Shown: piece after piece, positions 12,708 through 57,200 of the stretch
How positions within the stretch are numbered: position 1 is the stretch's first letter
Layout: each line of letters begins with the position of its first letter
Assembly (NCBI RefSeq): GCF_037975245.1
Contig: NC_092565.1
Location: forward strand, 5,467,999 to 5,531,998
Length of the DNA: 64,000 nt
Direction: 5' to 3'
DNA from: Apostichopus japonicus
Taxonomy: Eukaryota; Echinodermata; Holothuroidea; Aspidochirotida; Stichopodidae
The notes under the pieces: model-generated
What the model saw: the letters and a program-made list of their open reading frames with translations, nothing else
The model's database searches: none
What the model was told of the DNA's origin: nothing
Translations under genes and position numbers: made by a program

Positions 12708-15700
12708 ATGGCGCTCTCCTGGGAGACTTTGGCAAAAGATATAGTTTTCAACAAAAAGACTTGGTTAGCTTTAGGTGTTGCTAGTTTTGCGGGATCGGCT
12801 CTCTACGTTGCTTATCGGCTTCATGAAATAGCGAAACGGCAAAGAATGCTCAGGGTATGAAAGAGTGAAAGGGATTTCTTATATTTTTCTGTCGTTAATG
12901 AAAGTGTCTTCAGTTTGCATAGCGTTAACTGTTGTTATTACTAGCCTAGCGTTTGGCCTAGCCTAATACTAGGCTATTATATGTAATGTCTGTAACTGTC
13001 TGTAAGCAGTATTTATAAGACTAAGAAATTTAAGAGAGAATCCTAACTTAGACCGTTGACAGAACTAAACATCAAGATAAGTATATCAAAACCAAGTGTC
13101 AGCCGGAAATATGACTAAAGTTAGACATAGGTGGTTCAGTGACCATATTTTCAAATTTCCATCTGGATGCTTTAAAAGTTAAACTTAAATTGAAAGTTCT
13201 TGGATTTAAGACAGTGAATATACAGACTAGACTATGGCCTAGACTAATGTTTGTTTTAGCATAGGGAAATCCATTGTACAATGGCAAAATGCAGACACAG
13301 ATTTTCTCATTGGTGTAGTAGAATCTTTTGCAGAATTCATGTCTTGAAATAGGCCTAGCCTAGGCCCTAGTTAACCTTCTTACTAAAGTATTTCTCGCAA
13401 TGTTGAGATCGATGTTAAGTGGATCGGGTTTGATATAGATTACTGGCTTTTTCATCAAGCCATATCCCAAAAATTTCAAGAATAGCAACTGGTAATTGTT
13501 TGTTCTGGTTTGCTCCTGGAAGACCATTGATTCATTTATCAAGGGAGTTAGAAGAAACAAATTTGGAATGCTTAAAGGTTTGCTGTGTATTGTTCAAGAT
13601 TATTCTTACTTATCACTTCTGTAAATTTGATTTTTTGATACAGGAAGCCCCAGAAAAGAGAGTTTTGGTATTGGGATTGGATGGAGCAGGAAAGAGTAGT
13701 CTTTTGCAGCATATGAACAGTGGTGATTCTGCCAGTGCACTGCAACCTACAAATGGGTTCAGTGTCATCAGCATCCAAAATGAAGGAGTAGCTCTCAATA
13801 TTTGGGAAGGTAAGTTCCCTTCAATAATACATGTAGAGTAGTTTTACCTTCTTTGTGCCTATACATAAGATGATACATAGTTTTAGTTCTTGGAAAATAT
13901 TATTGACATGAAAGAAATTTTGCTAATTGTCTCTTAACAGTTGTTTAACAAACAGCTGTTTGTTCAACAAGATTATTGTCTAGATGTAAGTTAGGATCGA
14001 GTAATTTAACATGAGAATAATTAATTCCATAATTTTGACGACATGATAGCATTATTTAATGATAATTATATAGCGGTAAATCAATTTAAAATGTTAAAAA
14101 TTGTCAAATCTTCCGCAAATTCACTTTGGTAGGGTCTGCCAAAGAAATGATGTTGCCATTATAAATGAATATTTCAAAGAAAATCATTCCATTGACAGGT
14201 TACAAGATTATGGGTTAGTATTTGACATACATGTATGATACACACTAAAGGTCTCTCTGATGAGCTACTGGCAACTGAACACATAATTCTGGAATTAGTG
14301 AAATAACTTACAATGCACTTATACAGGTAATAAATTATGCATGATCATGTGACTTGTTTGAACTGAAATTTTTGTGTTAGCTAGCTGTGCAGATGTTGAA
14401 CTTTTTTTGTGCCGAAACCCATAACTGATCGATATTGTTCTTAAGGATCATTCAAGATGTTTATTAGGGTTTAGACTTTAGAGGTACTGTAAACATCTGG
14501 AAAACTGGATGGATGTAGAAACATCTACAAAAGGGAATAATTTAATGTTCAAATTTTGTTTTTGTAGCATTTGAATTTTGTATCTCATTGAATAACATAG
14601 TTCCTGTGCTATACATCATCAAACTTGTTAGCAACTTGACCATGCTTTTACATCAGTTCCCTAAATGCAAAATCGATTTTCTTTTCGGTATGGTTTGACA
14701 TTCTGATGAAGTCGCGTTTAAGAAAGGTGTTTGCCTCCAAAGCAAACATCAACACTAAATCTGTGCAGAGTGGATATGCAGTGCCTACTGTATAGCCTAA
14801 TTTGCATATATAGTAGTTCTGACAGAAGTTTTTAAGTTTTGATTTGCCTGCTATAGCTAAATTATGCCAGCTAACTGCACTGCTCTTGGCGAGAAGGGTC
14901 ACATTGTTAATATTGAAGATTGTCCTAACTTCATGGGTCATCCTGATACAGGTGTAAGCATGTATTTAGTTAACTTCACATCCCCCTTGCCATATTTCAG
15001 TTGGCGGAGCTGAAGGAGTGCGTTCGTACTGGGAAAACTTCTTGCAAGGGACTGAACTCTTAATTTTTGTTGTGGATTCAATCGACGAGGACAGGTTTAC
15101 AGTTGCAAAGGAAGAATTGACCAAACTTTTGGCAGATCAAAGGCTGAAAGGTGTACCCCTTGTGGTTGTGGCTAATAAGCAGGTAATGCAATCAAGGGGT
15201 ATCTTCTGTCCGTCTGTATGTATTTTTGTCTGTCCGTTCATTGTCGGCCTGTCCGTTCATCTATCTCGCCGTCGAGTTCTTGACAGTGTAGAAATTAAAT
15301 ATGCATTAACAATTCTCACCGTTCCATTACACACATAACTTGATGTAAGATATTTCCTTTTTGTTTATAATACTGAGGAGTTTCGTTTACTTACCACCCA
15401 TCCCTATAAACTTACCAAATATATACAGTACTCATTTAAAATGGTAATGGAATCCTAGTTGACTAAATGGTTTCTTTAGAGGATGGAAACCCTTCTTGTC
15501 AATAGGTTTTAAATACATCTAGACTTAGCACCACACCCATCAACAGTGTCTTGAAAATGGATTTCACAGCATATTTATTGTTTTAAGATGACTAAGATGT
15601 TTTATGAACATTAATGCAGTAGTTGATTGCTGCATCACTAAATAAATGACTGAATGTTAGCTTCCATCCGGACATTAAAGATCTGCTATATTGTCTCCAA

Positions 15701-39200: not shown

Positions 39201-42200
39201 TTTGAAAAGCAAAAGAAAATGAAGACAGGACAGTCACTCTCTTTACTTTTACTATAATGTTCATAACTTTTAGGCTGTCTAGATGATGATTTGTTATGTG
39301 AGCATCTGGTTGGATTTGTAAAAATCTTTACAAAATTTTAAGGCAGAGACGTCATGAGCCTTGTCAAACTTTAGGGTTAATAATGACACTTGGCCTCCTC
39401 TCCATGGCTACGTATTTTTCCCAGGACACTTTGTATATTTTTCCAGGTCTCCCTCGTTGACCCCGGGCCCTGAACTTCTCATCCTTTCCCATCTCCCCGG
39501 TTAGGTAATTCCAGCGAAGTGGCAATAAATACAGTGGTCAAAATTCTGGACAGTGATTTGTCCTGTTAGGTATTAACTCCAGTTTGATCACAGAAAGGCA
39601 AATTGCCATATGCACTACCTTCAAACCAGTCTGAATATAACAAGACAGTCGAGTTAGGGTTATGTCACGCCCATTGGAATAAATTTTTATCCCTTTCACA
39701 TTGGGGAAGAGGGAACCCATCCTCTCTCAAGGCTGCAAAATTATCCTCCTTTTCTTCGGATAATTTTTTTTCTGGTAACCCTAAGAAGGGATAGGCTCTT
39801 AACAGACAAAGGGCTTTCTTTATTGTTTTGTATATACGCTGAAGTTACATATGTTAACTTGTCGCAGATAACGTTCTGTATCTTCTTCTTCTTTGTAGGC
39901 GTTTATTACCAACGATGTCACATTCTCTCATACATCCTTCTTTCCTGGTCGATTCTGCTATGACATCGTGAGAGAGGAACTGGTCATCGGCTTCTTGAAA
40001 CATGTTTTCCAAGTTGCATTGGTATGTTTGGCGGGTTTGTTTGTTTGGTGCTCTTTTTTTTGGTGGGGGGAGTGGGGGTGGGGCATAGGGAGAGAGTCTT
40101 GGGAGAAGGGGAGCTGAATTTTAATCTTATTGTCATTGACTTTAAAGACTTGGTTTACGATGAAACGATTATTTTGTTCATCTTGTTCAATAAATAATTG
40201 TACGCTTAAAGGAATTTGGTAATCTTTATTTTCTGTGTAGGTACTAATTCTATGTAATTTGAATGTGTAGTTATCTATTCTTCTAGTATGAACGGGCCAA
40301 TATGTGCAAATGGGGATCTTCAGCGTTTATACTGAGGGCGCTGTCATATTGGTGTCCTAGACATGGCGCTAATACACATGATCTATCCTGTTTACGGATC
40401 TCCAGAGATTTTGCATTTCGCTGTAACATATCTTAATATTATGTGCTAGTTGTGAAAATATGTTTCAAAATGATCTCGCCTTCAACAATATTAAGGAAAA
40501 GGTATTAGTCCACTTTATTCCATTTTGGAGACTTGGATACAATCCTACTGATGCTCAGAGCTTAGACTCAGTTATACTTGTGAATAGTTTAATTTGATCC
40601 TTATTACTCCCAGGATCTATCAGAAGTCAGTCAACCTTGTAAATATATCTTATTTTGATCCTTATTTCTCTTAGGATCTGTCAGAATACAGTCAACCTTG
40701 TAAATATATTTTAATTTGATCCTTATTCTCTCAGGATCTGTCAGAAGTCAGTCATCCTTGTAAATATCTCTTAATTTGATCCTCATTCTCTTGGGATCTA
40801 TCAGAAGTCAGTCATTCTTGTAAATATCTCTTAATTTGATCCTCATTCTCTTGGGATCTATCAGAAGTCAGTCATCCTTGTAAAGCTATTTTAATTTGAT
40901 CCTTTTTTCTCTCAGGATCTGTCAGAAGTCAGTCATCCTTGTAAATATATTTTAATTTGATTCTTATTCTCTCAGGATCTATCAGAAGTCAGTCATCCTT
41001 GTAAATATATTTTAATTTGATCCTTATTCTCTCAGGATCTGTCAGAAGTCAGTCATCCCTGTAAAATTATTTTCTTTTGATCCTTATTTCTCTCAGGATC
41101 TGTCAGAAGTCAGTCAACCTTATAAATAGATCTTAATTTGATCCTTATTACTCTCAGGATCTATCAGAAGTCAGTCATCCTTGTAAATATATCTTAATTT
41201 GGTCCTTTTTTCTCTCAGGATCTGTCAGAAGTCAGTCATCCTTGTAAATATCTCTTAATTTGATCCTTTTTTTCTCTCAGGATCTATCAGAAGTCAGTCA
41301 TCGTAAATATATCTTAATTTGATCCTTTTTTTCTCTCAGGATCTGTCAGAGGGCAGTCATCCTTGTTAATATATCTTAATTTGATCCTTTTCTTTCTCTA
41401 AGGATCTGTCAGAAGTCAGTCATCCATGTATATATATCTTAATTTGATCCTTTTCTTTCTCAGGATCTGTCAGAAGGCAGTCATCCTTGTAATTACATCT
41501 TAATTTGATCCTTTTCTTTCTCAGGATCTTTCAGAGGGCAGTCACGATAAGAGTTCTCCTCCTGCTGCTCTCATCCTCATCTTGTCTCGTCTCTTTCTTG
41601 ACTTTGAGGCCAACACAGTCAATCAGTTTGTAAGTATAAAGTCAAACATTTTCCTCTCTCTCTCTCGTTTTTCCCCTGAAGGAGTTATAGTTGGGCAGCA
41701 ATCTGACTCTTTCGGTACTCCTGGGTGGGTTCGTGACAGCACACTCCAAGGAGTTATAGTTGGGCAGCAATCTGACTCTTTCAGTACTACTGGGTGGGTT
41801 CGTGACAGCACACTCAAAGTAGTTATAGTTGGGCAGCAATCTGACTCTTTCAGTACTCCTGGGTGGGTTCGTGACAGCACACTCAAAGTAGTTATAGTTG
41901 GGCAGCAATCTGACTCTTTCAGTACTCCTGGGTGGGTTCGTGACAGCACACTCCAAGGAGTTATAGTTGGGCAGCAATCTGACTCTTTCAGTACTCCTGG
42001 GTGGGTTCGTGACAGCACACTCCAAGGAGTTATAGTTGGGCAGGAATCTGACTCTTTCGGTACTCCTGGGTGGGTTCGTGACAGCACACTCCAAGGAGTT
42101 ATAGTTGGGCAGGAATCTGACTCTTTCGGTACTCCTGGGTGGGTGCGTGACAGCACACTCCAAGGAGTAATAGTTGGGCAGGAATCTGACTCTTTCGGTA

Positions 42201-45200
42201 CTCCTGGGTGGGTTCGTGACAGCACACTCCAAGGAGTTATAGTTGGGCAGCAATCTGACTCTTTCGGTACTCCTGGGTGGGTTCGTGACAGCACACTCAA
42301 AGTAGTTATAGTTGGGCAGGAATCTGACTCTTTCGGTACTCCTGGGTGGGTTCGTGACAGCACACTCCAAGGAGTTATAGTTGGGCAGGAATCAGACTCT
42401 TTCTGTACTCCTGGGTGGGTTCGTGACAGCACACTCAAAGTAGTTATAGTTGGGCAGCAATCTGACTCTTTTAGTACTCCTGGGTGGGTGCGTGACAGCA
42501 CACTCCAAGGAGTAATAGTTGGGCAGGAATCTGACTCTTTCGGTACTCCTGGGTGGGTTCGTGACAGCACACTCCAAGGAGTTATAGTTGGGCAGGAATC
42601 AGACTCTTTCGGTACTCCTGGGTGGGTTCGTGACAGCACACTCCAAGGAGTTATAGTTGGGCAGCAATCTGACTCTTTCGGTACTCCTGGGTGGGTGCGT
42701 GACAGCACACTCCAAGGAGTAATAGTTGGGCAGGAATCTGACTCTTTCGGTACTCCTGGGTGGGTTCGTGACAGCACACTCCAAGGAGTTATAGTTGGGC
42801 AGGAATCTGACTCTTTCGGTACTCCTGGGTGGGTTCGTGACAGCACACTCCAAGGAGTTATAGTTGGGCAGCAATCTGACTCTTTCAATACTCCTGGGTG
42901 GGTGCGTGACAGCACACTCCAAGGAGTTATAGTTGGGCAGCAATCTGACTCTTTCAGTACTCCTGGGTGGGTGCGTGACAGCACACTCCAAGGAGTTATA
43001 GTTGGGCAGCAATCTGACTCTTCACAGTACTCCTGGGTGGTTTTGTGACAGCACACTCCAAGGAGTTATAGTTGGGCAGCAATCTGACTCTTTCAGTACT
43101 CCTGGGTGGGTTCGTGACAGCACACTCCAAGGAGTTATAGTTGGGCAGCAATCTGACTCTTTCAGTACTCCTGGGTGGGTGCGTGACAGCACACTCCAAG
43201 GAGTTATAGTTGGGCAGCAATCTGACTCTTCACAGTACTCCTGGTTGGGTTTGTGACAGCACACTCGAAAGAGGACAGGAGATCGTGTCACTGTGACATC
43301 TGCACTGTCTACGGTTTCCACGTCTCGCTTCTGTTGTGCTCCAAATGACACGGGAGTTTGTCTGAAGCAAACGCTGCTAGTATATTTGTGATGAGCAGTA
43401 ACAGCTTTTCCAACAAGATATTATAAAGGTGCTTCCTTCGATTGGACAGACATGAATGTTTTTGTCTATATAAAGGACAAAACATGAAGCAGCCTTCCTA
43501 CGACACAATGTGGTTGTACAAGCCATTCTGAATCTGAAGCTCCAAACTTTCCCTTAAGGTGAACTTTGACCTGCCAAACTCATGACTCTCTTGTTGTACA
43601 TTCAGTGGCTGGGATAACATTAAAGGTAAAGACCACATTTTGAAGAGATGCCTAAGGGATCCCATTCCTGCGAAATTTTGTTGTTTTCGAGCAGTGCGAG
43701 AACGGAGGAGAGGATATGAAACTACTTAACATTGATATGGATGCAAGAAGGCAGTATTTCTGATGTTACAAAAATGTAGTTCATATTTTTCAAGGGTTTA
43801 CACATTTGTGCAGACCATTGACTCTGTATGTAGAAGTTAATGGTTTTGTCAATTAGTTAACAGTCGTGCAACATTTACACAAAGTAAAGCAAATAGTTAT
43901 CATAGACTTTTTTAATAGTTTGGCATGCTACCAGTTTTTGGTGCATTTTTGCTGGCATATCATTTCAGAAAAAAAACAGCTGTAAATTTAGGATTCATTG
44001 GAATGAATTTCAGTGCGAGGGGCACCTGGGGAAAAAATTGTTTCGATTGAGCATTTGCCAAACTCTTTTGACGTACCTCTCTCGAAAATTTAAACACGGT
44101 AGGTTTCTAATAAAACAAGTCATTAAAGCCCCTGTTTACCATTAAAATTAGTACCACATCGTTTTCTGACATTAAGTGATACAATCATGAAGCTGTTTGC
44201 AATTTTGTTTGCAAGCAAATATTGCATATACCCCTGGAGGCAAGAGTGAGGGAAAGGATGCACGTTTCTAAGCGGGGCAAATTCTTAAAATGTCTGTTCG
44301 GGACAACCAACCCGAGCTTTGGAGGCCACCCGGTGGCCAACTAGTTGTTTACGTTAAATTCAGATTGCATTTGTAAACAAAATACCCCCCAAATAACAGG
44401 TAAAATTATAACTTGCTATCATCACCTTCCATTTCTTTGGAGATGCTTAAATATAAACAAAAATAATGGTACTGTAGTCCTATTATCTACCCGAAGGGTA
44501 GTTTGACCGGTCAAAACCCGGTGTCCTATTCTCCAAACCTACACATCTCTTCTACAGTCTACATATTGGTTAATTCTTTGTTATTTTGTCAGGACCAAAT
44601 TTGCTGTTTGAGCAACCATAGAATAAGTCCCTCCCCCCCCCTTATTGTCCGAGGAACTACCAGAAAGAGGCCTTAGCAATGTGTCCAGCTGAGTAATAAT
44701 TCCCTGTTTATGAAATCTTTTGATCTAAAATCCGGTTTTTGATCTATAATCTGGTTTTGATCTATAATCTGGTTTTTGATCTATAATCTGGTTTTGATCT
44801 ATAATCTGGTTTTGATCTATAATCTGGTTTTTGATCTATAATCTGGTTTTGATCTATAATCTGGTTTTTGATCTATGATCTGGTTTTTGATCTATAATCT
44901 GGTTTTTGATCTATAATCTGGTTTTTGATCTATAATCTGGTGTTTGATCTATGATCTGGTGTTACTTTCTAAAAGTGTCTTTAAGAGGATACTTGACATT
45001 GATCTAAAAGGGTTTCCATTTTGAAAGCCAAACCGACAGCTCGGTAGAGAGATGTTGTAAATGTATTCGCTGAATATTAAAATATAATGATATACACATC
45101 TGGCTAATTCTTGAGCAAAAGCACAGCACTGTCCGAAATAGGTGCATAACCCGCTTATGTGTCTTTTTCATTTGACAAGCCAATGAATGTTGCCTTTTGT

Positions 45201-48200
45201 ATTCACACACTTCTTTTGAAGGTTCTTAAAACTATTTGCAGCACTTTTTTCTTTGTGAGGTAGATTTCTAGCAGATTCCTAGCTCTCATCCCTGACCCCT
45301 CTGACGGTAACCCTAAGCACAGAGTCCCCCTGCAACCCCCCCCCCCCCCGAGGTTAATGCTCACTGGTCAAAATACTTCTTTCGTTGGAGAATAAGAACG
45401 AATCATCTCGCCTTCAACATGCATGGAAGAAATCGCATCGGGTATTGAAAAGCGAAGTAAATTGAAAAGTTGTTTCGTCTGTTAGATATAAATGTTGGAA
45501 AATATTCTTAAATTTGTTTTTTTTTGGTCTCCGTTTCTGAAGGTCAGCCAAGTCAATGAGCAATTCCAAATAGACCCAGCGCAAGTCCAGACAACTGCAG
45601 CTGCTCTCTGTGCAGAGTCAAAGATGGTCGCTCAGAGGATGTTAAACCATTACGTGAAAATCCAGGGACTGCAGATATCACAGGTGTGCTGCGACATGCT
45701 TGAACCTATAGTCTTTTACAGCATTTTGAAGCTATGGAAAGGAAAAAGATCATCAGTTGAGGTTGAGAGGGAGTTTTTGGGGAATGGGTTGGGTGTTCGA
45801 TGGACTATTAGATTACAGGGTTGAGAATGGTAGGAATGGGGGTGGGGGTGGGGAAATCCAAGGTGTTTTGGAAGAGGGTGTGAGACTTTGAATCTGGGAT
45901 GTGGGAGGAGGTCTAAGGTGGTTGGGATGGGGGAAAGACTGGGATTTGGGGGGTAACATAGATTTAAGATCGCAGGCTTGGGAATGGACTAACATGGTAG
46001 GGGATGTGGTGCACCATGATGTCTGAATTAGTAGTGATATTTCTTGGAAGGGACAGAATGGCAAATATGGCTCAGGGCAGGGAAGGTCAGAGATGCTTGA
46101 TTTAAGATAAACTAAGACTTCCAGATTTACTCTAGAAATGAACTGGAATGGTAATAAGGAGATGGACTTAAGATGTAAGGTATCACTGGCATAGAATAGT
46201 GAGATACAATACGTGCTGTTTAAATATGGTCGGTAGAATGAGAATAAAAGAATCTCAAAGATCAACTCGAGAACGGTGTCGACAACAACGATAAAGAGAG
46301 GTTGGCACCGACTAGAAAACCACAGGATGAAAAAAGAGGATATGACATGAGTTCAATTGAGTATTTTATTTTGGAAGGGATGGATGGTGTGGACCTAACA
46401 GCTTTCGTCAAGTCTTGACCGAATTAACTCTCTGTCAAATATCAAATTCATTTTCAGATGTTACGTAAGAGTGTGGAGACGAGGGATTGGCTGAATACGA
46501 TCGAGCCTCGGAACGTCCGAGCGGTCATGAAGCGAGTGGTCGAAGACGTGACATTTATCGACAGCCAGGTGGGCATGCTCTACGAGGAGGGCATCAGGAA
46601 GGCTCACAGCAGCGACTCGAGCAAACGGACCTTCCAGAGCTACAGCGGACCTAGAAAGCATCAGAGTACCGCCAGGAGCTTCACTCCGAGGTAAGACTTG
46701 ATGCAAACTGGTCTATTTGTGTCTAGAGTAGCATAGATCACGGTAACGCATGGCAGTTGAAATAGATGTAGTCTATCTTTTTTTCAGCTTATTTTGTCTT
46801 GAGTAGCATAGATCATGGTAACGCATATGCTGTTGAAACAGATGTAATCAAGATTTATTCTGGTCTATTATGTCTAGAGTAGCATAGATCATGGTAATGC
46901 AATCGCAGTTGAAACAGATGTAGTCTAGATTTATTCTAGTCTATTGTGTCTAGAGTAGCATAGATCATGGTAACGCATCGCAGTTGAAACAGATGTAGTC
47001 TAGATTTATTCTAGTCTATTGTGTCTAGAGTAGCATAGATCATGGTAACGCATCGCAGTTGAAACAGATGTAGTCTAGATTTATTCTAGTCTATTGTGTC
47101 TAGAGTAGCATAGATCATGGTAACGCATCGCAGTTGAAACAGATGTAGTCTAGATTTATTCTAGTCTATTGTGTCTAGAGTAGCATAGATCATGGTAACG
47201 CACCGCAGTTGAAACAGATGTAGTCTAGATTTATTCTAGTCTATTGTGTCTAGAGTAGCATTGATCATGGTAACGCATTGCATTTGGAACAGATGTAGTC
47301 TAGGTTTATTCTAGTCTATTGTGTCTAGAGTAGCATAGATCACCGTAACCTATCGCAGTTGAAACAGATGTAGTCTAGATTTATTCTAGTCTATTGTGTC
47401 TCGAGTAGCATAGATCACCGTAACCTATCGCAGTTGAAACAGATGTAGTCTAGATTTATTCTAGTCTATTGTGTCTCGAGTAGCATAGATCACCGTAAAC
47501 TCTCGCAGTTGAAACAGATGTAGTCTAGATTTATTCTAGTCTATTGTGTCTAGAGTAGCGTAGATGTAGGAACATGATGTAGGAACAGATGTAGTCTAGA
47601 TTTATTCTAGCTAATTTTGTCTTGAGTAGCATAGATCATGGTAATGCATCGCAGTTGGAACAAATGTAGACTAGATTTATTCTTTTCTATTTATTCTTTA
47701 GTAGCATAGATCACGGTAACGCATCGCAGTTGGAAAAGATGTAGTCAAGATTTATTCTAGTCTATTGTGTCTAGAGTAGCATAGATCATGGTAACGCATC
47801 GCAGTTGAAACAGATGTAGTCTAGATTTATTCTAGTCTATTGTGTCTAGAGTAGCATAGATCATGGCAATGCATTGCAGTTGGAACAAATGTAGTCTGGA
47901 TGTAATATGATCATTCTAGAGTTGAGATTTTAGAACGTGTGGGATATCTGAAGGCTTCATCAAAGTGCAAATTTTTGTCTGAAGAAATATTTATATTTCA
48001 TTATTCTGTGAATAAATTATTTGCATATCATAAGCTAGGGAAAACAGAGACAATATTCTTCTTACTCACCATGTTGATGTCAAATCTCACTGCAGTTGCA
48101 GTATACACTCATAAAACTTCATTTAAGCGTTAGAAAATTTTTGGCCATTAAACAAGCTATCATGTCTACCAGAGCAGAGAAAATGTACCGTTCGCTCTTT

Positions 48201-51200: not shown

Positions 51201-54200
51201 AAGTGATTATAGTTTATCTGATCCAACAGGATCGATAATTGATATTCTCCTTATCTTAAACCTTCGAGTAATCATTCAAAAATGATGCAACCAGATCATA
51301 AAATCATAAGCAATTATTTTTGCTGTTTATTAAAATGTTATTAATTAATCATTTAATTAATCGTTTACAGCTCTTGCTTAATCTAATCCTTTTCGTAAAT
51401 CCTTAATCTGATAAAGAAGGGTTAAAATATTGATAATTGTTTTTTTATACTTTTGTTACAAAAACAATACATTAGCACTGATTGGCAATAGGGGTGCACC
51501 AGATTTGAAGAAAATTTGTCCAATCCAATTTTCCGGCCAGATTTGATTTGGGAGAAAAAGCTGGTTATACCCTGTCATGTTGGTTGATATGCCGTAGAAC
51601 AGGGGTTCCCTAAGTGGGGTGCATGAACCCCCAGGGGATAAAGTTAGGGACACCCTGCCGTAGAATATGCCAGACTACATACAGTGTAGTTTAACACTTT
51701 AGCCTACAAACAGCAGGGTTCTAATAATAGTTTTCATTTCCTCTCTCTCGTTATTAAACATAAACCGCTAAATACCAAGAATAGAAAGGGGGAACAAATT
51801 GTAGACTGTTACATCGACACACTCCTTCCATTACAGAAATTGTAGCGTTACGTAAAGTTACGGGTAAATCCGGCTGGGATGTTTTGAATGAATCCAGCAA
51901 ATCTGGTATAAATTCGTATTAATCTAATATACTTTGTTAATCGATCACTTTAATTTTCACAATTATGGTCGCTGTTTAAGAAATAGCTATTGTTTATTTA
52001 CGAAAATGGAAAAAACAAATTGTACATTGGATTCAAAGATTGCATAAAAGATGGCAAAAAAAAAAAAATCTGGTATCAATTATTTGACGTGTCAAAGCCA
52101 GTTCATCACTAATCGATTGATATATCGTTAATAACCTTTATTATAAATACAATGCTAAATATTTGTTAAATTAATAATTCAAGCTGCTGCTTAATCTGAT
52201 CCAAAGGATCAGTATATTAATATTCCTGCCTCAAAAAAACAGAAAGTGAAAAACAAAAGTTTTTGTTTATACCCACGAATATGAATCTGCATTTTAAATA
52301 TGAATGAAATAAGATGCCGAGTTTTGGACGTTGCCATTAATCTATTTGCTCATCATCTGACACGAAAGGTCGATGATACTTTTGCTGGTCGAGTTATATT
52401 TTATTCCTACGTTTATCAATTTTCGATCTTTAAACGTGCAACGATGTCAACGTTATCATCGTCAAAACCGCGCCAAAAATTGTTTGTTCGTCCAAAATTC
52501 CAAATATAAAACGCATCTATTTTATAGAGTGCTGTTTGTCATGAGTTTGAGCGAGATATCTCGCCCGTGTGATCTTATCTCAGAAACCAATTGACTGATC
52601 CTCCTCGTCATACAAGATAAGATTGTTTTTTTGTTAAATTCCATTTGTTTCATTATTTATTCCATTTCCGGTCGACAGCACCGCGTACGACACCAGCCTG
52701 ATGAGTAATATACAGAAGTTGTTCTCGGAGAGGATTGAGATATTCAGCAGCGTGGAGTTTTCCAAGGTCTCCGTCCTGACGGGCATCATCAAAATAAGTC
52801 TGAAGGTAAGGTCGACCTACCTAGGGACATGTCCTGGGTATGATGTTAAACTGCATCCAGGCAGAGTGGGGAGGCTGTGTGTGGGGTTAGTCAGTCCCAG
52901 GCTTACGTCTTATAAAAAGCACACTAGAAGCCATTATTACCTACAATGCGACTGGCAGGTCGGCGCCATAAAACCGAGTGGGGCCCATGGGTTGGGTTTG
53001 GGAGCAGTCTGCATGGCGGAAATGGCGTTGTTGTTCTAAGGTTTCTACGGTATTGAAGGCATGCAGCAGCACCAGCAGTAGGTGTACGTGTAGTAAAGGG
53101 CGGTTGTACATGATAGTATATTCCGGCCAGCTGCATCCGTAGCGGAGTGACGTCCCAGCTGATTATTAGTCTAAAATTCTCTTGTATATATATATACACA
53201 AGAGAATGCCGACGGTTCTATGAGGACTATGGCAAAGCAGCAACAACAACCTAGGGACGTCGTAATTTTTTCTCGATCCACTTCTCTACGATGGCCAGAG
53301 ATAGACAAAAAAACTTGGTTGGAAACAAAAAGGGCCAGATAATATAAATCTGACTAACCATTAGACCGAGAAATGTGTATAGGTTAGGCTGGGTGCAATG
53401 CTCAAGCCAAAGGCTTTTACTGTTATTGAGACCGAGTACCCGGCCCTGACTAATATACTTGGGTATCGTTTTTACCATCCACCCATGTGCTGTAATATCC
53501 CTAACGACCATATTTGTGTGTCTCAGGGAGGGGGAAGGAGGGGGAAGGAGGTGGGAAGCATGGATTACGGTTGGATGTGGAACTCAACTGTTTTTCCTTC
53601 TGCCCATTTTATTTTTATTTTTTATCTGGCAATTTTACTGTAGATACTGTAAGATTGGAATCTGCTTATGAAGACCTCTTTTTCCCTTTTACTTTGATAT
53701 TAACATCTCATTTCAGAATTCCTTGTTAGAACCTTTTCAGAGATACAATCGCTGAAGGCTCTGCCTTTTCAAGTAACTCACAGGAATTGGAAAGATATAT
53801 TATGATAGAGTGGAAGGGGGCAGGGGGGGGGCAGGGTGCATTGATTGGGAGAATGCTTTGAGACTAGGATTAGAATGCTTGTTCAAGGTGACCATGATTT
53901 TGACTTCCTCGCCTATTCTGCGGCCAGACCGAGATTAACTTCCTTGCATGCAGTGCAATGTGCCTTGAGAGTCGGAAGGCACGATCCAATCGGGCCAAAA
54001 ATGCTGCCGTAGATAGAAATTGCTGTCTCCTTATGATTTTTATTATTTTTGTTTACCCTTGAACCTATTTTTATTTTGGCCTAGCTTCAACCCTCATATC
54101 TAGTCTATGGCAGATATGATACTAGCCCAAGGTTTAATACCAAAGAATGTTGTATGAGGAGTTTGGTCCGTGTTAAACAGTGTTAACCGCATCTCACCCA

Positions 54201-57200
54201 GAAAGGTCGTTATGCGCAGTGACTACCGGGTCATTATTAATACGAGAAGTTAAGTCTTTTATGTAAACCTACCAGCATCTCTGTGTTCATCTTAGCCAAG
54301 TCAAGCTGTATGTGTGTCTTCAACCAGAAGTCTATTAGCTTGTGGCCTTCTGTGGTATCTTGTGTTAGTGTCAGTGTCTGACCTCCTGGAAGCAACGAGA
54401 AGCTACAGTTTCAGTATGAAAAAAAATCATTTTTTATGGAACGTTTGAAGAAGCGTTCAAAAGTCAAAATTGTAATTCCTTTACCAAATAGAAGTTTTTT
54501 TACGGTTCAGACTTTGACAATTTCAGTATTTTTCCATTTTTATAGCAAAGACAAAAATGCATTGCATCTATGTTGTAAATATTGGCAGTTATTATGCACA
54601 CATGTCTTAATTTATGCTCCCAAGTACTCTCGCTCGCCATGCCCACCCCCACCCTGGCTCCTACACCCAAATGAAGAAGAAATTATACCTTTTCTATGAA
54701 ACCTGCAAAGCTTTTTCTCATTCATTTATATTTAATATTTTAGTGACCAAGCTCTGTGGACATCTCTTCTCTAAGTTTATGCAATATTGCTGCTAATTTT
54801 TAATATCCTTACTATAAAAGTACTATTTTTCAGTTCAGACATCAGCCTATTTTCTGCGCTACAATAAAACAGTGTGTTAAATATTTCACCCTATTGTCTT
54901 TGATGCAAGGAATTGGTTATATCAGTAGCTGGTTAGTTTGTGTTGTGTTTTGTATTTCTGACATGTTTGTCACTTTTCATCTTCCTTCTTAATCTTCCTT
55001 AAAATTGATGTAAACTATAAAATTTGTACTTTCTCTACATTTTTGCATACATTGTCCCCAAGAAAGAGAAAAAAACATGGATTGAGACTAAAAAAAGATT
55101 TTTTTCTTTATCTGTTTCTGGCAGACGTTTCTGGAGTGCGTCCGTCTCAGGACGTTTGGCCGATATGGTCTGCAGCAAATTCAAGTTGACACACAATACC
55201 TAAACCTTTATCTCTGGAGATTCGTTATCGACGAAAAGTAAGTATGTTTCTGTCAAGAGGTATATCTGCTACTCACAGGCCACTGCTCAGGTACTCGTGG
55301 GTAGCGGCTCAGTTACTCGTGGGTAGCAACTCAGTTACTTGTGGGTAGCGGCTCAGGTACTCGTGGGTAGCGGCTCAGGTACTCGTGGGCAGCGGCTCAG
55401 TTACTTGTGGGTAGCGACTCAGTTACTTGTGGGTAGCGGCTCAGGTACTTGTGGGTAGCGGCTCAGTTACTCGTGGGTAGTGGCTCAGTTACTCGTGGGT
55501 AGCGGCTCCGTTACTCGTGGGTAGCGACTCGGATACTTGTGAGTAGCGGCTCGGTACTCGTGGGTAGCGGCTCAGGTACTCGTGGGTAGCGACTCAGTTA
55601 CTCGTGGGTAGCTGCTCAGGTACTCGTGGGTAGCGACTCAGTTACTCGTGGGGAGCGGCTCAGTTACTTGTGGGTAGTGGCTCAGTTACTCGTTCCCAAC
55701 AGCTCAGATACTTGAGGGTAACAGTTCAGGAGCTGTGGTAGCGGCTCAGTTAGTCTTTAATAACAGCTGAGGGGCTCGTGGCAACGGCTCAGTTAATCCT
55801 TGTGGGTAACAGCTCAGGAGCTTGTAAGAGTGGCTCAGTTACTTGTGGATAACAGCTAAGTTACTAGTTCACAGTGGCCCAGTTACTTGTGGGTAACAGC
55901 TCAGGGGCTTGTGATACTGTAGCAGCTCAGATACTTGTGGGTAATAGCTCAGGGGCTGGTGGTAGCGGCTCAGTTACTCCTTCACAGTGGCTCAGAGACT
56001 CATGGGTAACAGCTGAGAGCTTGTGGTAGCAGCTCAGTTACTCGTGGGTAACAGCTCAGAGGCTCGTGGTAGCGGCTCAGTTACTCGTTCACAGTGGCTC
56101 AGAGCCTTGTGGGTAACAGCTGAGAACTTGTGGTAGCAGCGCAGTTACTCGTGGGGAACAGCTCAGGGGCTCGTGACAGCGGCTCAGATATTCGTTCACA
56201 GTGGCTCCGATACTCGTGGGTAACAGCTGAGGAGCTCGTGGTAGCAGCTCTGATACTCGTAACAGTCGAGTGTTTCTACTCATTGATGCAATTTACATAT
56301 TTGCTGCCTTGTTTGCTTTGGCTAATGACAAAATCTTATTGTGTTTTTCTGCTGGTATTTCGTGACCCAGACCAGAAAAAACGTACCCTTTGTTTGAAGG
56401 TTATCTTCAATCTGCAGCTGGGAAATTAAAAAATCTGTGCAATAAAGAGAATTGAGAGACTGTTAGTTTAGTGGATCTAATCATTTTTTGTCTATAATAC
56501 GACAAGCAATTTTAAAATGCTGCACCACTAAAGACAAATACGACCAACCAATAGAATCAACCGGGAATATTTGATGTAATTCCGAGCAGAGTTTCTTCAC
56601 GTTTAAACAAGAAAATTAGTAAATAAACAGAAATTGATTGCGTACCGTTAAACCCGAGTAGAGGCCAATATGATGGATTTGATAATCAAAATGATTCTTA
56701 GTATATAAATTTTGATTGTTTGAGAAATAAAATGGTAGACATTATTATTAAGCAAATTGCTGTTATGTATCTCTCAGGTCATTATCTCCTGGGTTCATGA
56801 AGGTTATTTCTGTGTGCTACACAAGATAACAGCACTTTGAATTACATTCGTGGAAGACAGTAGCTGTCAAATACTATCCTATTACCCCACATCAACCCCC
56901 TCCCCCACTCCCCCTCCCGCTCTCATAGATATGAAAAGTTTATTTGGATTGACAAACTCATTGGTACCCATTGTTCAGACTATCACTATATTGCAAAGAC
57001 CTCTTTGACAGGATCCTGTTACCATCTAAAATACTGTAGCCACTATTGTATATTAACAGCTGGTTAGCCAGAGAGATAACTAGAAATTGTGGAAGTGGGT
57101 GGGGGGGGGGTAGGGGAGTTACAAAATGAGAAGTGGATTTGAAAGAAATAATAAAAATAATGTGACTCTTGATCATGCAAAGCAAAAACATACCTTACAA

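Follow-up and report, generated by a model that had tools for sequence, protein, structure and literature searches.

The 3' splice site in front of one VPS51 exon of the sea cucumber Apostichopus japonicus is the last unit of a tandem array in which the whole junction occurs 16 times. This raises the question how a single acceptor is chosen from a series of near-identical sites, and whether the additional copies serve the gene in any way. The locus was analyzed within a window of 64,000 nucleotides (NCBI RefSeq assembly GCF_037975245.1, contig NC_092565.1, positions 5,467,999 to 5,531,998 of the forward strand), and positions of the window are used below. According to our main reading, to which we assign a probability of roughly 0.8, the array is a neutral or mildly costly minisatellite of the mirage type that captured a splice junction and most likely has no dedicated function.

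The VPS51 gene model comprises 14 coding exons on the + strand from 23927 to 45683, which have AG/GT borders and join in a single open frame of 605 codons. Three further downstream exons (46458-46690, one starting at 52679, and 55125-55238) have borders read by eye. In a Pfam profile search the product of the 605-codon model matched four families, VPS51_Exo84_N (E 1.8e-24), Sec5 (E 2.7e-28), Dor1 and Vps54_N, which we take to be related vesicle-tether subunits; the gene is presumably VPS51 and not a sister subunit, an assignment that also draws on the human protein. The short peptide of exons 12 to 14 gave nothing above the cut-off in Pfam and no useful match in the PDB (best E 0.11), and a PDB search with the 605-residue model returned nothing at 0.01. 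Coding exon 12 (39899..40021, 123 nt) ends in phase 0 with the donor GTATGT, and the donor coordinate 40021 given in an earlier reading of this DNA (hereafter the sequence-only reading) agrees with the model. The exon behind the array is coding exon 13 (41525..41629, 105 nt, donor GTAAGT). As its phase is 0-0, skipping of this exon would preserve the frame. The true acceptor at 41525 is set by the reading frame, in which the 14 AG/GT-bordered exons join without interruption. Thus, the claim of the sequence-only reading that the array ends at the true junction is upheld by the reading frame, and its count of this exon as number 14 is replaced by 13. Elsewhere in the window, the exons of an Arf-family GTPase were found at 13434-15338 (Pfam Arf, E 1.4e-36), presumably an ARL9/10-like gene.

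The array itself (40568..41544, + strand) was described by TRF with a period of 61, 16.1 copies, 88% matches and a score of 1365; an alternative period of 181 bp, corresponding to three units, scored slightly higher (1386). It contains 16 GGATCT cores at a spacing of 59-63 bp from 40614 to 41525, in agreement with the earlier estimate and coordinates of about 16 units of about 60 bp. Each unit spans the exon-intron boundary, reaching about 40 nt back into the intron and about 20 nt into the exon, and holds a branch-point-like region, a pyrimidine tract, an AG (GG in two units) and a copy of approximately the first 20 exon nucleotides. The array ends at 41544 within exon 13, whose first 20 nt it includes, and this is the only one of the 17 VPS51 exons with an edge inside a TRF array. 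The most upstream duplicated junction, AG|GATCT, lies at 40614; it is followed by copies at 40675, 40735, 40795 (GG), 40855 (GG), 40916, 40976, 41036, 41097, 41158, 41219, 41281, 41340 and 41403, and the last one is found at 41464. An AG directly precedes GATCT in 14 of the 16 units and hence, as counted before, in 13 of the 15 upstream ones. The two GG units (4 and 5) are 98% identical to each other; the change from AG to GG was therefore probably a single mutation that was subsequently copied.

Compared in pairs, the 16 units are on average 84% identical. The end units are the most diverged (67-82% for unit 1 and 67-87% for unit 16 compared to the others), and inner units reach up to 98%. 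The similarity of units tends to drop with distance, from a mean of 0.873 between neighbours to 0.796-0.816 at 10-12 units apart, although this trend is weaker once the end units are removed. Decay with distance and diverged end units are the pattern of ordinary turnover in tandem repeats. The two ends of the array share a short CAGTnA match (TCAGTTA at 40568-40574 and, inside the exon, GCAGTCA at 41538-41544), which fits an origin by slippage or unequal exchange. Chance similarity of the units is ruled out by the TRF score of 1365 and the presence of 16 units. Nor was a dispersed repeat or transposon seen as the source of the unit: a search of the species' own genome (671,581,487 bases in 35 contigs) with 301 bases of the array locus listed seven matches, namely the query and six places in the same array, a count that is a lower bound with common words skipped. 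In the proposed history, a segment of 61 bp, made up of about 40 nt of intron and the first 20 nt of the exon, would first have been duplicated in tandem, and later expansion to 16 units would have proceeded through slippage or unequal exchange, each copy inheriting a whole 3' splice site.

The strength of the copied sites was assessed with a 3' splice-site matrix trained on the 15 other acceptors of VPS51, the true site at 41525 being left out. In leave-one-out scoring the training acceptors ranged from 1.91 to 12.68 with a median of 8.42. The true site scored 11.39, and three upstream sites, in units 6, 11 and 15, scored 11.81, 11.58 and 11.39, respectively; the two GG units scored 0.42 and the other ten upstream units 5.90-10.17. 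The median score was reached by 41 of the 1991 AGs between 24.2 and 55 kb, seven of which lie within the array when the true site is counted. Of the 18 positions preceding the AG, 14-16 are pyrimidines in the units, which also have branch-point-like motifs and a stretch of 24-44 nt free of AG. Thus, the sequence-only reading was correct in describing a ladder of near-identical 3' splice sites. Furthermore, the junction at 41464 (unit 15) and the true site (unit 16) are identical over 33 nt, 28 intronic and 5 exonic, so that no nearby feature separates the true site from its neighbour.

Use of an upstream junction would have a uniform outcome. In the frame of the exon, all 15 upstream junctions, the two GG units counted, would lead to a premature stop between codons 10 and 30. 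A TGA at codon 14 or 15 is encountered from 12 of them, and the remaining three run into TAG at codon 11, TAA at codon 10 and TAA at codon 30; the earlier expectation of a TGA within about 15 codons therefore holds for the 12 and has to be corrected for these three. The exon measures 105 nt from 41525 and 166 to 1016 nt from the upstream sites, and the premature stops sit 121-971 nt ahead of the exon 13 donor. At 12 of the 15 upstream junctions, a donor-like GTA follows at a distance of 25 nt. By the exon-junction rule, RNAs with premature stops in such positions are targets of nonsense-mediated decay (NMD). With stops this far ahead of the donor, any RNAs spliced at upstream junctions would thus be NMD targets.

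Under the main reading, productive splicing would take place at the last copy, since only 41525 gives a compact 105-nt exon beside the strong GTAAGT donor, and splicing to this site is what exon definition would lead us to expect. Leaky use of upstream copies, if it occurs, would add repeat sequence and a stop ahead of the donor, and the resulting RNA would be removed by NMD. However, the sites of units 6, 11 and 15 are as strong as the true site or stronger, so that leakage could be large. The 13 intact upstream AGs, together with a hairpin that can form in all 16 units (see below), could moreover be read as a sign of constraint. By parsimony on a tree of the units, a single change sufficed for the two AG columns (permutation p 0.47), and 18 changes were counted over the 24 columns of the exon copy (p 0.25), i.e. 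excess conservation was seen in neither. In raw counts, the least-changed stretch, TTAATTTGATCC, has 4 changes in 12 columns compared to 56 in 63 overall. From the p values of the AG and the exon copy, there would seem to be no sign of selection for the copies within the array.

Other arrays are present in the introns of this gene. A separate array of 23 units of 69 bp (TRF, 41679..43273, + strand), distinct from the junction array, begins 50 nt after the exon 13 donor. It is one of three large VPS51 intron minisatellites, the other two being located at 46711-47901 (75 bp) and 55285-56260 (22 bp); the 69-, 75- and 22-bp arrays start 50, 21 and 47 nt past an exon donor. An enrichment of arrays just after donors as a general rule was rejected, as array coverage was lowest near the match edges in the 77 loci described below. 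Through the 69-bp array the frame of exon 13 is open for 514 codons from stop to stop (41504-43048). A coding role was considered and dismissed: minus-strand frames of 480 and 249 codons are free of stops as well, and none of the three codon positions is spared by the variable sites, so that a stop-free period that is a multiple of three is enough to explain the open frame.

The frequency of arrays at exon edges elsewhere in the genome was estimated from 77 loci, each an exon matching one of three Pfam families and taken with flanks of up to 1.5 kb. The sample holds 30 of the 70 myosin-head matches, 30 of the 126 kinesin matches and all 17 E1-E2 ATPase matches; these are the best-scoring exons of the families, chosen by score and not at random. 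The edges of the loci are the ends of Pfam matches, approximating splice sites rather than mapping them, and some must overshoot, since the match frame contains a stop in 17 of the first 60 loci and in 4 of the 17 later ones. TRF arrays (period at least 15, at least two copies) occupy 22,716 of the 246,978 bases of the 77 loci (about 9%) and 9.7% of the window. An array within 6 nt was seen at a single one of the 154 match edges (in L014), versus 15.6±3.3 expected from random flank points, and a count as low as this was obtained in none of 2000 random draws. Array coverage amounts to 1.0% at 0-30 nt from the match edge, 11.6% at 500-1000 nt and 10.3% at 1000-1490 nt. Exon-edge arrays are under-represented in the sample, owing either to harm done to splicing or to an intolerance of repeats in coding sequence, and with one edge found where 15.6 were expected, boundary arrays appear to be rare survivors. 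The depletion is a first numerical measure of what such repeats cost.

Three more boundary-spanning duplications were found among the 77 loci. In L014 (1729-2680 of the locus; contig C4 of the genome G000, match 23981812-23982048), the myosin donor CTAG|GTATGC opens a series of 19 CTAG|GTA copies in units of about 53 bp; the copies were located by a search for CTAGGTA, and an unbroken series is deduced from their spacing of 51-54 bp, with the last at 29. In L035 (1589-1936), the end of a myosin exon and the donor that follows it are present twice in tandem (period 220, 97% over 128 bp). L057 (minus strand, 1680-1997 after turning) carries two copies, with a period of 168, of the acceptor and the start of the next kinesin exon; being the acceptor of the next exon, it was found from its TRF row, outside the edge test. 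The working copy in L035 and L057 was picked by eye, in the case of L057 with the kinesin motif as a guide. Both two-copy cases are possible early stages of boundary arrays. In a genome so rich in minisatellites, arrays at boundaries arise repeatedly as a by-product. Several other candidates were set aside. An edge match in L041 (81% over 36 nt at a shift of 400) extends only to 37 nt at 78% and was judged to be chance; the arrays of L024, L042, L066 and L078, when read, were found not to span a splice junction of the matched exon; and those of L047 and L069 were discarded by their distance of 329 and 361 nt. Further listed arrays lie 67 nt (L074) and 118 nt (L086) away.

A side observation from the same genome concerns mitochondrial sequence. 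COX1-like fragments with TGA codons occur on contig C29 of G000 (loci L009-L011), and the mitochondrial-looking contig is C35; the fragments on C29 are either a nuclear copy or misplaced mitochondrial sequence. In COX1 on C35, AAA is found where Asn is expected (STNHKD, GFGNWL), AGA is read as Ser and TGA codons occur internally, which fits the echinoderm code. AAA codes for Asn in the mitochondria of echinoderms and flatworms.

The edge depletion (1 of 154 edges against 15.6) says that boundary arrays matter, and the VPS51 array may thus be non-neutral, which counts against the neutral side of the main reading. An alternative takes this further: the array would be a mildly deleterious passenger. 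It would give rise to mis-splicing and NMD on an appreciable scale, be tolerated since the dose of VPS51 is not limiting, and in time be lost or mended by drift. We consider this possible, if rather unlikely as a separate account; it overlaps with the main reading and differs only in the size of the leak. The equal strength of upstream sites and the strong depletion at edges speak for it. The latter may, however, reflect coding constraint inside exons alone, and the match edges only approximate exon edges.

The sequence-only reading went further and proposed that the array could tune VPS51 output through NMD. In this scheme, upstream acceptors would compete with the true one, their poison products would decay, and the length of the array would set the amount of productive transcript. 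The 13 upstream sites with AG, three of them as strong as the true site or stronger, and the premature stops from all 15 upstream junctions, 121-971 nt ahead of the donor, speak for this scheme, and a VNTR in intron 6 of human TERT is treated in a paper whose title concerns how TERT splicing is regulated (PMC11830802). However, parsimony found the AGs no more conserved than other columns, and the strong depletion of exon-edge arrays in the sampled loci suggests a cost rather than a use. RT-PCR on amphioxus mirages suggested normal splicing (PMC3087553). Tuning is thus possible in principle but unsupported, and we regard it as doubtful. Similarly improbable to us is its most ambitious form, in which boundary minisatellites are a recurrent genome-wide class in the sea cucumber and the VPS51 unit number is a heritable, fast-mutating dial on productive splicing, with 13 usable acceptors, three of full strength, and every upstream choice poison.

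A still weaker candidate is a structural one. At the true site an inverted repeat could form a 6-bp hairpin (41507..41528, + strand; arms GATCCT at 41507-41512 and AG|GATC at 41523-41528), in which the AG is part of the stem and the loop contains the pyrimidine tract. It has been considered that this hairpin hides or presents the AG and the tract, so that the units act as structured decoys and sequence outside the unit opens only the true site. All 96 pair cells of the 16 units form, three variable pairs being kept as G-U (four cells), and when the partner is slid by 1-3 columns, pairing falls to 17-53%. Among 98 other pyrimidine-rich AGs in the region of the gene, one has a Watson-Crick stem of at least 6 bp over the AG, and none of the 15 other acceptors does, although with G-U allowed 6 of these 15 also reach stems of at least 6 bp. 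Two-sided changes occur in none of the six pairs, and the shuffles equalled the observed values in 500 of 500 cases, hence this control is uninformative. A fold of the whole array, run without a shuffle control, forms the hairpin in only some units. Since all units stem from one ancestor, the stem counts as one event, and since the true site carries the same hairpin, the hairpin alone cannot discriminate. It would be a curiosity, most simply inherited from the single founding junction, and we consider a decoy role very improbable.

A stretch of 1 kb is as a rule short enough for a single HiFi read to cover. An assembly artefact is scarcely credible: tandem arrays are prone to collapse or inflation, but the units have diverged to a mean identity of 84%, and if the genome is the A. 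japonicus assembly of PMC10344927, it was built from PacBio CCS (HiFi) reads at 64x.

The VPS51 locus can be regarded as a natural experiment on how the spliceosome chooses one 3' splice site among equals, since its last two sites are identical over 33 nt. It resembles several known systems. In tandem alternative acceptors of the NAGNAG type, several AGs compete for one exon; this may also be the situation in VPS51, where, unlike there, the whole 3' splice site and the exon start are copied at a spacing of 61 bp. As in NMD switches based on poison exons or alternative acceptors, all 15 upstream junctions (13 with AG) would give a stop well upstream of a later junction. In the 6-16 (IFI6) transcript, a minisatellite is said to offer many copies of a donor splice site. 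The VPS51 copies are candidate acceptors, whereas those of 6-16/IFI6 are donors, and the myosin donor array of L014 is the nearer parallel. The TERT VNTR6-1 is likewise a tandem repeat in an intron that has been studied for splicing; unlike the VPS51 array it is placed within intron 6, and the start of the abstract makes no mention of a copied splice junction (PMC11830802).

The closest relatives are the mirages of amphioxus, minisatellites across exon-intron boundaries in Adh3 and the globin genes BflGb6 and BflGb9, for which the Adh3 data and globin RT-PCR suggested undisturbed splicing (PMC3087553). As one of them covers an intron 3' end and the 5' part of an exon, the claim of the sequence-only reading that no case of this form had been described does not stand (PMC3087553). 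Mirage units include the intron end and the adjoining exon end, as in VPS51, and measure 10-160 bp, a range that includes the 59-63 bp found here (PMC3087553). Many but not all mirage units keep the AG/GT signals, comparable to the AG in 14 of 16 VPS51 units, and end units escape homogenisation, as do units 1 and 16, the most diverged of our array (PMC3087553). BflGb6 is an acceptor case like VPS51, with haplotypes of 6 and 3 units, whereas the VPS51 array has 16 and is known from the sequence of one assembly (PMC3087553). The two differ furthermore in gene and in phylum. Among the open-licence literature matches listed, boundary-spanning minisatellites were described for amphioxus only and none for an echinoderm. 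Thus, the VPS51 array appears to extend these minisatellites from amphioxus to another deuterostome phylum, and with a longer acceptor array.
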